Shown here: one piece after another, positions 15,498-19,724 of the stretch
Position numbering within the stretch: position 1 is the stretch's first letter
Layout of the letters: each line of letters begins with the position of its first letter
From: Actinomycetota bacterium
GTDB lineage: Bacteria; Actinomycetota; Acidimicrobiia; IMCC26256; JAENVU01
Length of the DNA: 64,000 nucleotides
Assembly: GCA_016870395.1 (NCBI GenBank)
Contig: VGBT01000001.1
Coordinates: forward strand, 68,376-132,375
Direction: 5' to 3'
Translations under genes and position numbers: made by a program
The notes under the pieces: model-generated
Database searches by the model: none
Told to the model about the DNA's origin: nothing
Seen by the model: only the letters and a program-made list of their open reading frames with translations

Positions 15498-16041
15498 ACT
15501 GGTGGGGTGACCTTGGAGTTCTGGCGTGCGATGACGCCGGCGGAGATCGCGGCTGCGTAGCAGCTCCGGCACTCGGTGTACGTGGAAGAGCTTGGAAGGT
15601 ATCGGGCTGCAGTGGCCAGTGACCGTGCGCGACGCGCAACATCAACAGTCCCGAAGCCGGCTATCTCGTTCCGCTGGCGAACTTCGTGCCTGATGTCGAT
15701 GCCTTGCGCGGCATCGGGAACGACGCGCAGCCCGGTGACCTGGCGCCCTGTATCGAGCGCGTGCTCGCGCAGAAGGGGAGCATCCGTAGCCAGTGGCTGA
15801 GCCAACCCGACACCTGCTGGGACGAGATCCGGGACACGCTGGAGACCCTCCATGCGCAACGGGTCTCGGCGTCTGACGGATTCACCGACGACGAAGCGAA
15901 GCGCTGCATCGCCCGGAGCAACATCATCGAATGCGCGGCCACATGATGGCGGCCATGGAGGAGCTCGGCTACCAGCAGGCCGAGCGCGACGACGTGCTGA
16001 GCATCGCGTTCTCCCTCAAGGACGGAATCATCCGCGTCTGA
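15498..16041 (+). pseudogene. Decayed gene, possible GNAT-like N-terminus
   Basis: Three frames must be stitched together. GTG at 15498 starts TLEFWRAMTPAEIAAA, then an in-frame TAG at 15558, then QLRHSVYVEELGRY, which resembles the opening helix of GNAT or acyl-homoserine-lactone-synthase-like proteins. A frameshift leads to SPEAGYLVPLANFVPDVDALRG and on to FTDDEAKRCIARSNIIE. Another shift gives MAAMEELGYQQAERDDVLSIAFSLKDG and a stop. The open pieces read smoothly into one another, so this is one broken gene or two fused remnants. The function of the intact ancestor is not clear. Confidence 0.5.
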
Positions 16042-16043
16042 GC

Positions 16044-17232
16044 TCAGCCGGCCGTCTCGAGGCCGCGGAGCGCGAGGCCGGCGTACGTGGCAACGCCCGC
16101 GGCCATCGCGTTCTCGTCGATGACCATGCGGTTCGAGTGGCACGCGTGGGCAAGGGCGGGCGACGTCTCCGGCGGGCAGACCCCGAGGAACGCGAGCGCG
16201 CCGGGCCGTAGGCGAAGTCCTCGGCCCCATCATCGGCGACGGCAGCTCGACCCACCGGTCCTCGCCGAGCACCTCGCGTGCAACCGCCTTCATCGTGTGG
16301 ACCGGCTCGGCGTGGTTGACCGTCGGCAGGTAGCCCTCGGTGACGGTCACCTCGGCCCGCATCTCGTGGGCCGCCGCGATGCCCGTGGCCAGCCGCTCGA
16401 TGCCGGCCAGGGCGCGACGGCGCGTCCGCTCGGACAGGCTCCGCACCGTCCCGACCATGTCGACGTGCTCGGGGATCACGTTGTTGGTGGTTCCCGCGGT
16501 GATCTTGGTGATCGTGACGACGGCCGGGTCGAACGCGTCGAGCCTGCGGGTGGTGAAGACCTGGAGCGCCTGGACGATCTCGGCGGCGACCGGCATCGGG
16601 TCGTTGGTCAGGTGGGGTTTCGACGCGTGCCCGCCTTCGCCGACCACCCGCACCTCGACGACGTCGGCCGAGGCCAGGATGGGGCCGAACCGGCTGCCGA
16701 GCATCCCGGCGGGCAGGTTTGGGGTCACGTGCAGCGCGAAGGCGAGGTCCACGGGAGGGGGGTCGAGCACGCCCTCCTCGATCATCACGCGCGCGCCGTG
16801 ATGGCCCTTGTCGCCGGGCTAGAACATGCAGCGGACCGTGCCGCGGAGCTCGTCGTAGCGCTCGATCAGGACGCGGGCGGTGCCGACGAGCATCGCGGTG
16901 TGCGCGTCGTGCCCGCAGGCGTGCATCGCACCCGGGTGCTCGCTCGCGCAGGGCTGCCCCGTGTCCTCGGTCATCGCCAGCGCGTCCACTTCGGCGCGCA
17001 GGAGCACGACGGGTCCGTAGCCGCCGCGCGGATCGCCGACGACGGAGCCGATCGTGGCACCGGGCCGGGTGTCGAGTGGCAGGCCCGCGAGCGCTTCGAT
17101 CACGGTGGCCTGGGTGCGCGGAAGGTCGAGTCCCAGCTCCGGGTGGCGGTGCAGCTCGCGTCGCAGCGCGCCGACGTCGGGGAGCAGCGACCGTGCGTGC
17201 TCGAGCAGGTCGGGGGCGGGTGTGGTCGGCAC
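16044..17232 (-). pseudogene. M20-family amidohydrolase (hippurate/IAA-amino-acid hydrolase type), inactivated
   Basis: The frame from GTG at 17232 carries RRELHRHPELGLDLPRT, an ALAMTEDTG segment, and the metal-binding MHACGHDAHTAMLVG. It ends at an amber codon at 16819-16821, where homologues have Gln in F-Q-PGEEG; a single C-to-T change would produce it. The frame continues with GHHGARVMIEEG and HVTPNLPAGMLGSRFGPILAS and includes GTTNNVIPEHVDMVGTVRSLS. It then suffers two frameshifts around GAEDFAY and the final LAHACHSNRMVIDENAM segment. About 395 residues would be encoded if repaired. It faces away from the LuxR-type regulator. Confidence 0.85.
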
Positions 17233-17371: not shown

Positions 17372-18037
17372 ATGGTCACGCAGGCGGGCCCTTCGGTCGT
17401 CGTGGCCGACGTCGTCCCGCTGGTCCGGGCAGGCCTCGCCGCGGTCCTCTCCACCGCGGGCTTCCGGGTGGTCGGTGATGCTTCGTGCGCGGCCGATCTG
17501 CCAGACCTCGTGGGGCAGCTGCGCCCGGGTGTCGTCGTCCTCGGGGCCGTCGCCGATCTCGGCCCGGCCGACGCGGTGCGCCGCCTGCGGGCCGACGCGT
17601 CGCCGACGTGCATCGTGCTTCTGCTCAACCGGGCGTCGCGGGCGTCGCTGGCCGAGCTCCTGAGCCTCGACGTCGAGGGTCTGCTCGCCCGCTCGACCCA
17701 ACCCGACGCACTCGTGGCCGCGCTGGGCAAGGCGTGGCGAGGCGAGCGGATCGTCGACCCGGCTCTGCTCGCCGACGACCGGCCGGACGACGACAGTGAG
17801 GCGACGGCCCTCACCGGCCGGGAGCGCGAGGTGCTCGAGCTGCTCTCCGGTGGGCAGTCGAACCGCGAGATCGCGGCGGTGCTCTACATCTCGCTACCGA
17901 CGGTGAAGACGCACCTCGCACACATCTACGCCAAGCTGGGCGCGAAGAACCGCAACGAGGCGCTCGGGCGCGCGATGGCGCTGGGGCTGCTCGGCAAGCT
18001 CCCGCGGTCGGTCCCGCGGCCACCGTATGCTGAGTGA
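17372..18037 (+). CDS. LuxR/NarL-type regulator with degenerate receiver
   Basis: The product has 221 residues. The C-terminal GerE-type helix-turn-helix is complete: LTGREREVLELLSGGQSNREIAAVLYISLPTVKTHLAHIYAKLGAKNRNEAL, residues about 150-203. The N-terminal part is shaped like a response-regulator receiver, but the acidic pocket reads ADVVPLVRAG instead of ADDHPLVR, and the phospho-acceptor position reads VVVLGAV with glycine for aspartate. It probably does not take phosphate from a kinase and may bind a small molecule or act constitutively. No histidine kinase is adjacent. csrA follows after 33 bp. Confidence 0.85.
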   Translation: MVTQAGPSVVVADVVPLVRAGLAAVLSTAGFRVVGDASCAADLPDLVGQLRPGVVVLGAVADLGPADAVRRLRADASPTCIVLLLNRASRASLAELLSLDVEGLLARSTQPDALVAALGKAWRGERIVDPALLADDRPDDDSEATALTGREREVLELLSGGQSNREIAAVLYISLPTVKTHLAHIYAKLGAKNRNEALGRAMALGLLGKLPRSVPRPPYAE

Positions 18038-18070
18038 TCGGGCGGGCGGACCACGGAAGGGAGATCCGGC

Positions 18071-18262
18071 GTGCTCGTGCTCACTCGTCGGACGGATGAG
18101 AGCATCATGATCGGGTCCGACGTGGTCGTCACGGTCGTCGAGATCCGCGGCGACCAGGTGCGACTCGGAATCACGGCGCCCCGCGACGTGACCGTGCACC
18201 GCGAAGAGGTCTTCCGCGCGATCGAGGAGGGTGGCGCGCAAAGGCCTCGAGAGAGGGAGTGA
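18071..18262 (+). CDS. csrA: Carbon storage regulator CsrA
   Basis: CsrA is a small dimeric RNA-binding protein that blocks or stabilises mRNAs at GGA motifs. The product has 63 residues. Family RNA contacts are present: LVLTRR at residues 2-7 and VHREEV with Arg44. [23 protein letters not shown] gives the swapped beta strands. The GTG start has GGGAGA about 7 nt upstream. CsrA is uncommon in actinobacteria and usually accompanies flagellar genes and fliW, neither of which is seen here. Confidence 0.93.
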
Positions 18263-18269
18263 GGTAGGG

Positions 18270-19724
18270 GTGGCGAGCAGGAAGAAGCCGACCTCCACGT
18301 CGAACTTCGGCGTCTCCCGACGGGAGAACCACGACGCGACGGAGTTCTATGCTCGCTTCACCTCGCCGGAGCTGTCGGACGACGCGCTGATCGATCCGCG
18401 AAAGGACATCGACGAGATCTTTTTCGGGAGCGCGGTGTCGATGGCCGAGGTGCCCGATCGTTCGGTGGCCCTGGTTGTCACCTCGCCGCCGTACTTCGCC
18501 GGCAAGGAGTACGAGGAGGCGCTCGGTGAGGGCCATGTCCCGTCGACCTACCTCGACTACCTCGGCATGCTCGAAGAGGTCTTCGCCGAGTGCGTCCGCA
18601 AGCTCGAGCCCGGCGGTCGGATCGCGGTCAACGTCGCCAACCTCGGCCGCAAGCCCTACCGCTCGCTGTCCGCCGACGTCACGACGATCCTCCAGGACAA
18701 GCTGCGGTTGCTGCTGCGCGGCGAGGTGCTGTGGCAGAAGGGCAAGGGCGCAACCGGCTCGTGCGCCTGGGGATCGTTCCAGCGCCCCGCGAACCCGGTG
18801 CTGCGCGACCTGACGGAGCGCGTCGTGATCGCGAGCAAGGGCCGTTTCGACCGGGCGATCCCGGCCGCCCAGCGGCACGCTCAGGGCTTGCCGTCAACGT
18901 CCTCGTTGTCTCGGGACGAGTTCATGGAGGCGACGACCGACCTCTGGGAGATCCCGCCTGAGAGCGCGACCCGGGTCGGGCATCCCGCACCGTTCCCGGT
19001 TGAGCTTCCCGAGCGGCTCATCCACCTCTACACCTATTACGACGACCTCGTGCTCGATCCGTTCATGGGATCGGGGACCACGGCGATCGCTGCGCTCAGG
19101 ACCCGTCGTCACTACGCCGGATACGAGACCGATCCGGAGTACTGCGAGCGCGCGCGTGCGCGCCTGGAGGCCGAGATCGAACGGCTCGCGAAGTTGCGGT
19201 CAACCGGCGACGAGCCACTCGCGTTCGTGCTCCCTGCGGTTCCTCTGCCTGATGATGACGACGAGGACCTCCAGGCGCAGGCGGTGCGCGAAGGAAAGGC
19301 GGCCAAGGATGTCGCGCGCGCGCTGCTCGACGGTTGCGGTTTCCGTGACATCGAGCCGGACGTGCGCTTCGCCCAGGGCGTCGAGGTCAATTTTCGCGCT
19401 TACGACCAGACTGGTCAGCCCTGGTTCTTCGACGTCTCTGGTGGCTTCACGAGCAGCCGGGCGGGTCTGCGGCGTACCGACACGCTCTGGAAGTCGATAG
19501 GCAAGGCAGCGGTCCTTCAAGAGATCGAACGGAAGGTGCCTCTCGTGTTGCTCACGACAGACGCGCCCGTTCGCAATAGCGCCGGGGACCGAGCGCTGCG
19601 GGTGATGTCGGGCAAAGGTCAGCCCATCTTCGCCGTCGTGCAGATGCAGCAGCCCGAAGATCAACGCCGACTGCGCGCCTTTGGAGAGCGGGGATTCCGC
19701 TGCGCTTCGAGGTCGACCGATTGA
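18270..19724 (+). CDS. Class beta DNA methyltransferase with an extra C-terminal domain
   Basis: The product has 484 residues. Motif IV TSPPYF lies at residues 71-76 and motif I DPFMGSGTTAIAA near 263, so the order is the beta class; SPPY favours N4-cytosine (adenine N6 remains possible). Residues about 330-484 form an added domain: AAKDVARALLDGCGF, EVNFRAYDQTGQPWFFDVSGGF, RTDTLWKSIGKAAVL, VPLVLLTTDAP. This looks like an alpha/beta nuclease-type fold with acidic and lysine residues, but a PD-(D/E)XK assignment is only inferred. GTG with AGGTAGG upstream is taken as start, 7 bp after csrA. No separate restriction gene lies nearby. Confidence 0.85.
   Translation: MASRKKPTSTSNFGVSRRENHDATEFYARFTSPELSDDALIDPRKDIDEIFFGSAVSMAEVPDRSVALVVTSPPYFAGKEYEEALGEGHVPSTYLDYLGMLEEVFAECVRKLEPGGRIAVNVANLGRKPYRSLSADVTTILQDKLRLLLRGEVLWQKGKGATGSCAWGSFQRPANPVLRDLTERVVIASKGRFDRAIPAAQRHAQGLPSTSSLSRDEFMEATTDLWEIPPESATRVGHPAPFPVELPERLIHLYTYYDDLVLDPFMGSGTTAIAALRTRRHYAGYETDPEYCERARARLEAEIERLAKLRSTGDEPLAFVLPAVPLPDDDDEDLQAQAVREGKAAKDVARALLDGCGFRDIEPDVRFAQGVEVNFRAYDQTGQPWFFDVSGGFTSSRAGLRRTDTLWKSIGKAAVLQEIERKVPLVLLTTDAPVRNSAGDRALRVMSGKGQPIFAVVQMQQPEDQRRLRAFGERGFRCASRSTD

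Follow-up and report, generated by a model that had tools for sequence, protein, structure and literature searches.

Restriction enzymes of the PD-(D/E)XK fold commonly act as dimers, and in the single-chain type IIG and IIC restriction-modification enzymes a domain of this fold and a methyltransferase are found in one polypeptide. In the heteromeric enzymes BbvCI and R.BspD6I, the nuclease units are not known to be fused to a methyltransferase. Methyltransferases in which a TSPPY motif precedes DPFMGSGTT have the beta order of motifs, and an SPPY motif is associated with cytosine N4 as the modified base. Orphan methyltransferases that occur throughout a class are already known and, in the available part of Blow et al. 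2016 (PMC4752239), a methyltransferase is classed as conserved when more than 50% of the species in a group have an orthologue.

The gene described here was found in a 64,000-nucleotide stretch of an actinobacterial contig (GenBank accession number VGBT01000001.1), referred to below as the window. It is highly likely to encode a methyltransferase that is solitary and carries a catalytically dead tail of the PD-(D/E)XK fold, related to R1, a small protein encoded near the methyltransferase gene in several relatives. Features of the window and of related loci (L numbers) are listed in Table 1.

Table 1. Positions of features in the window and, where a locus number is given, in related loci
Feature	Position	Strand	Basis
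csrA, probably outside the system	18071..18262	+	Pfam CsrA, E 1.1e-25
Methyltransferase with fused tail (very probably a pseudo-nuclease), 484 aa	18270..19724	+	Open reading frame and translation; single copy in genome
Methyltransferase domain N6_N4_Mtase, residues 66-295	18465..19154	+	Pfam, E 4.6e-37
TSPPY of methyltransferase	residue 71, 18480	+	
DPFMGSGTT of methyltransferase	residue 263, 19056	+	
Probable pseudo-nuclease domain, PD-(D/E)XK fold, about residues 334-474	19269..19691	+	AlphaFold2 model, structural matches, homology to R1
E372-V-N374, counterpart of E-x-D in R1	19383..19391	+	Alignment with R1
D388-V-S390, counterpart of E-x-K in R1, catalytic Lys lost	19431..19439	+	Alignment with R1
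R2, example	L115:1608-2606		
S, example (16 other loci also)	L031:1907-2254		
R1-like proteins of the third type	L064:9132-9842, L073:9152-10051, L208:2155-3054, L209:2372-3082		

The methyltransferase gene and its surroundings

The initial annotation had proposed a beta-class methyltransferase with an uncharacterised C-terminal domain, and this description was borne out, as the open reading frame is real, its product matches N6_N4_Mtase and the tail falls in none of the families searched. The frame starts with GTG, and an alternative in-frame GTG at position 18231 would extend the product to 497 aa. The match to N6_N4_Mtase (PF01555) scored 128.5 bits, above the gathering cut-off of 26.7, and the PADLOC family MTase_II (PDLC03350) matched residues 3-305 (E 1.9e-84). 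Motif IV (TSPPY) lies ahead of motif I (DPFMGSGTT), as in other beta-class enzymes, and the motif HPAPFP starts at residue 238. Going by the SPPY motif, the enzyme would probably modify cytosine N4. Approximately 180 residues stand C-terminal to the Pfam match, and this part includes motifs starting at residues 372 (EVNF), 385 (WFFDVSGG) and 401 (RRTDTLWKS).

The csrA gene that had been noted beside the methyltransferase gene was confirmed; it has the same orientation and ends 7 nt before the methyltransferase gene. At 112 other loci, no csrA gene was found close to the methyltransferase gene, hence this arrangement is peculiar to the window genome. A gene for a LuxR-type regulator and csrA (17372-18262) stand in line upstream of the methyltransferase gene, separated by 33 and 7 nt, and the three genes may be transcribed together, an arrangement that is peculiar to this genome. 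On the opposite (-) strand, an M20-type amidohydrolase-like gene, recognised by eye, appears to be split over two open reading frames (15661-17232), as either a pseudogene or the product of an assembly error.

Fold and catalytic site of the tail

The tail was modelled using AlphaFold2 with an input of 73 sequences, which were those of the window and 72 of 80 loci after removal of near-duplicates. The model (pLDDT 86.2, pTM 0.82) has the elements H25-46, E50-57, E63-69, E75-81, H93-110 and E116-120, which form the alpha-beta-beta-beta-alpha-beta core of the PD-(D/E)XK superfamily. Foldseek returned nothing below E 0.001 with this model, and its first rows were EndoMS (E 0.0099, probability 0.98), SfsA and a Pyrococcus repair endonuclease. 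With VIA-align, 41 chains scored Z ≥8, the highest being BsoBI (Z 10.5, rmsd 3.6, 147 residues aligned), an XisH-family protein (Z 10.5, rmsd 2.8, 115 aligned) and PspGI (Z 10.4, rmsd 3.5, 150 aligned), with Cdn1, Can2, Card1, BstEII, PfoI, BbvCI and SgrAI among the further matches, and the nearest solved structures were mostly restriction endonucleases. As most of the top VIA-align rows are, judging by their names, presumably PD-(D/E)XK proteins, the fold is clear despite the moderate single scores. The PD-(D/E)XK core that had been guessed from the sequence is therefore found in the structural comparisons, and the tail is also homologous to R1.

Searches with the tail alone gave nothing up to E 1 in Pfam, NCBIfam and PADLOC, weak matches in PHROGs (best E 0.031), and no match in phages (tblastn) or, using the tail alignment, in viral contigs. 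When the whole protein was used, plasmid matches reached only residue 292, within the methyltransferase part (among 40 matches listed of 122 records), and four distant matches in viral contigs covered residues 238-300. The tail is kept in frame in many genomes, and its presence is thus not due to chance.

The catalytic site was examined in 113 fused copies, which include a few genomes counted twice. The Lys of the E-x-K motif was present in 9 of 9 stand-alone R1 copies and in none of the fused copies, where the position is occupied by S (91 copies), A (11), T (6), G (4) or I (1). The position ahead of it holds D in 109 copies, E in 3 and L in 1, and is thus acidic in 112 of the 113. In the first motif, Asp is retained in 11 copies and replaced in 102 (N in 73, S in 16, another residue in 13). 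The window tail keeps acidic residues at E372 and D388. Because the Lys is absent from all fused copies and the first-motif Asp has become Asn in 73 of them, the tail is very probably a pseudo-nuclease. The same two changes speak against the single-chain modification and restriction protein put forward in the initial annotation, since the residues predicted to be needed for cleavage have been lost; its alternative, an epigenetic regulator, fits better.

R1 and unfused forms

In several relatives, R1 has its own gene (~140 codons), located one or two genes 3' of the methyltransferase gene. Its alignment with the tail spans the length of R1 (hhalign probability 99.6, E 2.9e-24). The site E-x-D...E-x-K is intact in all nine stand-alone copies and in all 11 copies of a wider set, which predicts an active PD-(D/E)XK nuclease, and a nuclease-family gene adjoins a methyltransferase gene in these loci, as in type II restriction-modification systems. 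R1 had no convincing match in PDB, Pfam, PADLOC or NCBIfam. Two R1 relatives on viral contigs gave sub-threshold matches to Mrr_cat (E 0.091) and UPF0102 (E 0.053).

Forms in which the two proteins are not fused were found repeatedly. A tailless methyltransferase gene is followed by an overlapping R1 gene in L184, and R1 adjoins tailless methyltransferases with 54-56% identity to that of the window in L199 and in L201, where the two genes are convergent. On the viral contig L214, a gene for an SPPY methyltransferase overlaps an R1-type gene. Synechococcus phage Sf-FR1 carries a D12-class methyltransferase gene and, just upstream and separated from it by one small gene, an R1-like gene (31.7% identity, 78% of the query covered). 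In L200, the pseudo-nuclease is in its own reading frame or a sequencing frameshift has occurred. Methyltransferase and R1 are therefore a recurrent pair and, as unfused pairs exist, the tail is most plausibly a lineage of an R1-type companion nuclease that became fused and lost its activity. In a tree of the domain, built by a quick method with some long branches such that the placing of single rows is unsure, 73 fused tails and one unfused copy were split from R1, the viral R1 relatives and a third type by a branch with SH-aLRT 95.8.

Two further observations were made at these loci. The methyltransferase of L214 (3587-5612) has a long N-terminal extension that by eye resembles ParB/HTH proteins. 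The third, rarer R1-like type is devoid of the Lys and is encoded on the opposite strand, adjoining a tailed methyltransferase gene (Table 1).

R2, S and other linked genes

The commonest conserved neighbour of the methyltransferase gene encodes R2 (~332 aa), which was present in 22 loci and, in 17 of them, immediately 3' of the methyltransferase gene and in the same orientation. S (~110 aa) is encoded directly downstream of a tailed methyltransferase in each of the 17 loci that have it, and matched no known family. In the R2 family, SCK is invariant and RWSHGRF is conserved, and the conserved VSCK and EW motifs suggest that R2 may be a nuclease. Apart from marginal matches in PADLOC to Cas2 (E 0.0057) and REase_II (E 0.006-0.007 over 22-23 residues), R2 matched no family or PDB sequence, and it was not found in viral contigs; neither R1 nor R2 matched plasmids. 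An AlphaFold2 model of R2 (pLDDT 83) had no credible match in Foldseek or VIA-align (best Z 3.2), and an assignment of R2 to a known nuclease was rejected.

Among 340 genomes of the class, R2 was found in 59, an intact stand-alone R1 in six plus a partial seventh (judged from frame length), and a tail or R1 in 142. By hand count, 53 of the 59 genomes with R2 are within the 142 (Fisher p 4e-17, kinship ignored). For a comparison of tailed and tailless forms, 40 class loci were picked by frame length, 20 of each, and L179, a tailed pick that is cut short, was excluded. R1, R2 or S was linked downstream in 9 of the 19 tailed loci versus none of the 20 tailless loci (p 0.0004), and, where a tailed locus has ≥1500 nt of downstream sequence, R1 or R2 is linked in 34 of 105 distinct loci.

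The association is not strict. R2 is encoded upstream of a tailless methyltransferase in L161 and adjoins tailless methyltransferases in genomes G267, G282 and G326 and, as R1 lies beside the tailless forms in L184, L199 and L201, the tail is required for neither. A rule that R1 or R2 occurs only with the tail is thus ruled out. A hand comparison further identified seven genomes in which R2 is unlinked to the methyltransferase (G018, G200, G247, G251, G298, G319 and G321).

Other neighbours were also recorded. In 14 loci (e.g. L069:2242-2466), the methyltransferase gene is immediately preceded by a small gene (~74 codons) whose product by eye resembles ribbon-helix-helix proteins. A neighbour of 196 residues with a DLKEK motif, possibly nuclease-like, is encoded in L065 (6356-6946) and also near L064, L073, L132 and L138. 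In 11 loci, a neighbour that we take to be ligA indicates partly conserved synteny.

Distribution, history and constraint

The methyltransferase domain was detected (E ≤1e-60) in 272 of 345 genomes of the class and in 145 of 167 genera, nearly always once, which places it above the 50% used to define conserved orphan methyltransferases. The titles of related loci, for the best 80 of 271 relatives, name Acidimicrobiia, Acidimicrobiales, Acidimicrobiaceae, Actinomycetota and, once, Acidobacteria. A search of the phylum found the domain in 36 of 246 genomes, of which 15 belong to the class and 21 to three families outside it, and confinement of the family to one class is thereby ruled out. Two other genomes of the window genus (80 and 86% complete) gave no match to the methyltransferase. 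In the window genome (G000, completeness 98.9%), a search covering these two families found neither R2 nor a stand-alone R1; a restriction enzyme from another family that shares the specificity but is encoded elsewhere in the genome would escape such a search.

When 143 methyltransferase domains were placed in a tree, the 20 tailless rows that had been picked grouped on the same side of the midpoint, with weak support. Three changes are needed on this tree for the tail state, and at least 20 for the presence of a linked R1 or R2. The rows nearest to the window by path include L027, which has R1 and S, and L079 and L065, which have S, suggesting that S and R1 were lost in the line leading to the window.

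In the 48 close pairs listed, out of 62 compared, dN/dS for the tail was mostly 0.13-0.4 (extremes 0 and 0.62) and for the methyltransferase domain 0.04-0.19, as estimated by the Nei-Gojobori method, which is rough at high dS. Hence, at the sequence level, the tail is constrained, though less strongly than the catalytic domain. Low values for the tail were also obtained in pairs where neither row has a linked nuclease, which suggests that it does something even where R1 and R2 are absent. As the tail persists in many genomes that have neither, the constrained role cannot be solely that of holding R1. Linked nuclease genes come and go, and the tail persists, apparently under purifying selection, where they are absent.

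Possible roles of the tail

It is probable that the window gene encodes a solitary methyltransferase that arose from a restriction-modification ancestor, with a tail that is an inactivated member of the nuclease family of R1. The methyltransferase of the ancestral system would have been kept, and a nuclease-family domain would have been fused to it and inactivated. Where R1 is present, the tail would pair with it and bring it to the sites of the methyltransferase; pairing is proposed because restriction enzymes of this fold are commonly dimers and R1 is little more than a nuclease core. Docking of R1 in the relatives is a tentative proposal. The fuller scheme, in which a dead fused copy recruits a tiny live R1, marking and cutting share a single recognition domain, and loss of R1 leaves a lineage-wide epigenetic enzyme, is rather unlikely as a whole. 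In the window genome, methylation of specific sites without restriction would be all that is left, and the tail would serve DNA binding or oligomerisation.

The tail may instead simply bind DNA or mediate dimerisation in an epigenetic methyltransferase, with its descent from a nuclease now of no consequence. This possibility, itself tentative, is nearly as likely as docking: the gene is class-wide and mostly single-copy, the constraint extends to pairs with no linked nuclease, and only a minority of tailed loci have R1 or R2 linked. Against it stands the strong enrichment of R2 genomes among the tailed ones (53 of 59, kinship ignored).

That the dead tail acts as an antidote or decoy, pairing with R1-type subunits and restraining them, and so guarding the cell during periods when sites are unmethylated or against incoming R1 systems, is improbable. 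It would explain why a tail that is paralogous to R1 is kept, and constrained, where R1 or any linked nuclease is missing, but few genomes of the class (6 of 340) have an intact stand-alone R1 and protection would seldom be needed. It is slightly less probable again that the tail is a decaying relic without function. The tail does evolve faster in protein sequence than the methyltransferase domain, and two tails look broken (L048 is frame-shifted and L179 is cut short), but the dN/dS values well below 1, including those from pairs without a linked nuclease, the fold motifs kept across families and the three changes of tail state on the tree argue against it.

A single-chain modification and restriction enzyme that cuts via an unusual site, such as the Lys of the RTDTLWK helix, is very improbable, as the fold, E372, D388 and the nearly universal acidic residue of the second motif are outweighed by the loss of the Lys from every fused copy and of the first-motif Asp from most, and the helix Lys is also found in R1, which has an E-x-K of its own. 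The window protein is most likely a solitary and probably epigenetic methyltransferase rather than a single-chain restriction enzyme.

Comparison with known systems

Titles and the beginnings of abstracts in the literature, with subscription papers and REBASE outside this scope, included no description of a methyltransferase fused to a dead copy of its companion nuclease, and no methylome linked to the window gene for its poorly cultured actinobacterial group. For a single Acidimicrobiia draft genome, the available part of PMC6329791 gives 0 methylated motifs and 0 methyltransferases. The tail, R1, R2 and S indicate undescribed families in this group. Three states are found side by side in living lineages, namely a methyltransferase with a separate nuclease, a dead-tailed methyltransferase with a live nuclease, and a tailed methyltransferase alone, hence the passage from a defence system to a lineage-wide DNA-marking enzyme is testable.

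Beta-class methyltransferases of PF01555, such as the putative methylase 2zie and M.PvuII (1boo), share the domain and motif order of the window protein and likewise have no active nuclease in the chain. However, they are without the pseudo-nuclease tail, and the main PDB matches reach only residue 304 of the query. The one-chain layout is common to the window protein and the type IIG and IIC enzymes, but in the window protein the nuclease site has been lost and the nuclease-like part is C-terminal. In BbvCI and R.BspD6I, which are heteromeric with paralogous subunits and both occur among the VIA-align matches of the tail, PD-(D/E)XK units are possibly paired, as the tail and R1 might be by analogy. 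Like the conserved orphan methyltransferases described in the available part of PMC4752239, the enzyme is present in more than half of the genomes of the class, mostly without a linked R1 or R2. It differs from them in carrying a tail that is very probably a dead nuclease, and in having relatives that keep linked nuclease-like genes.
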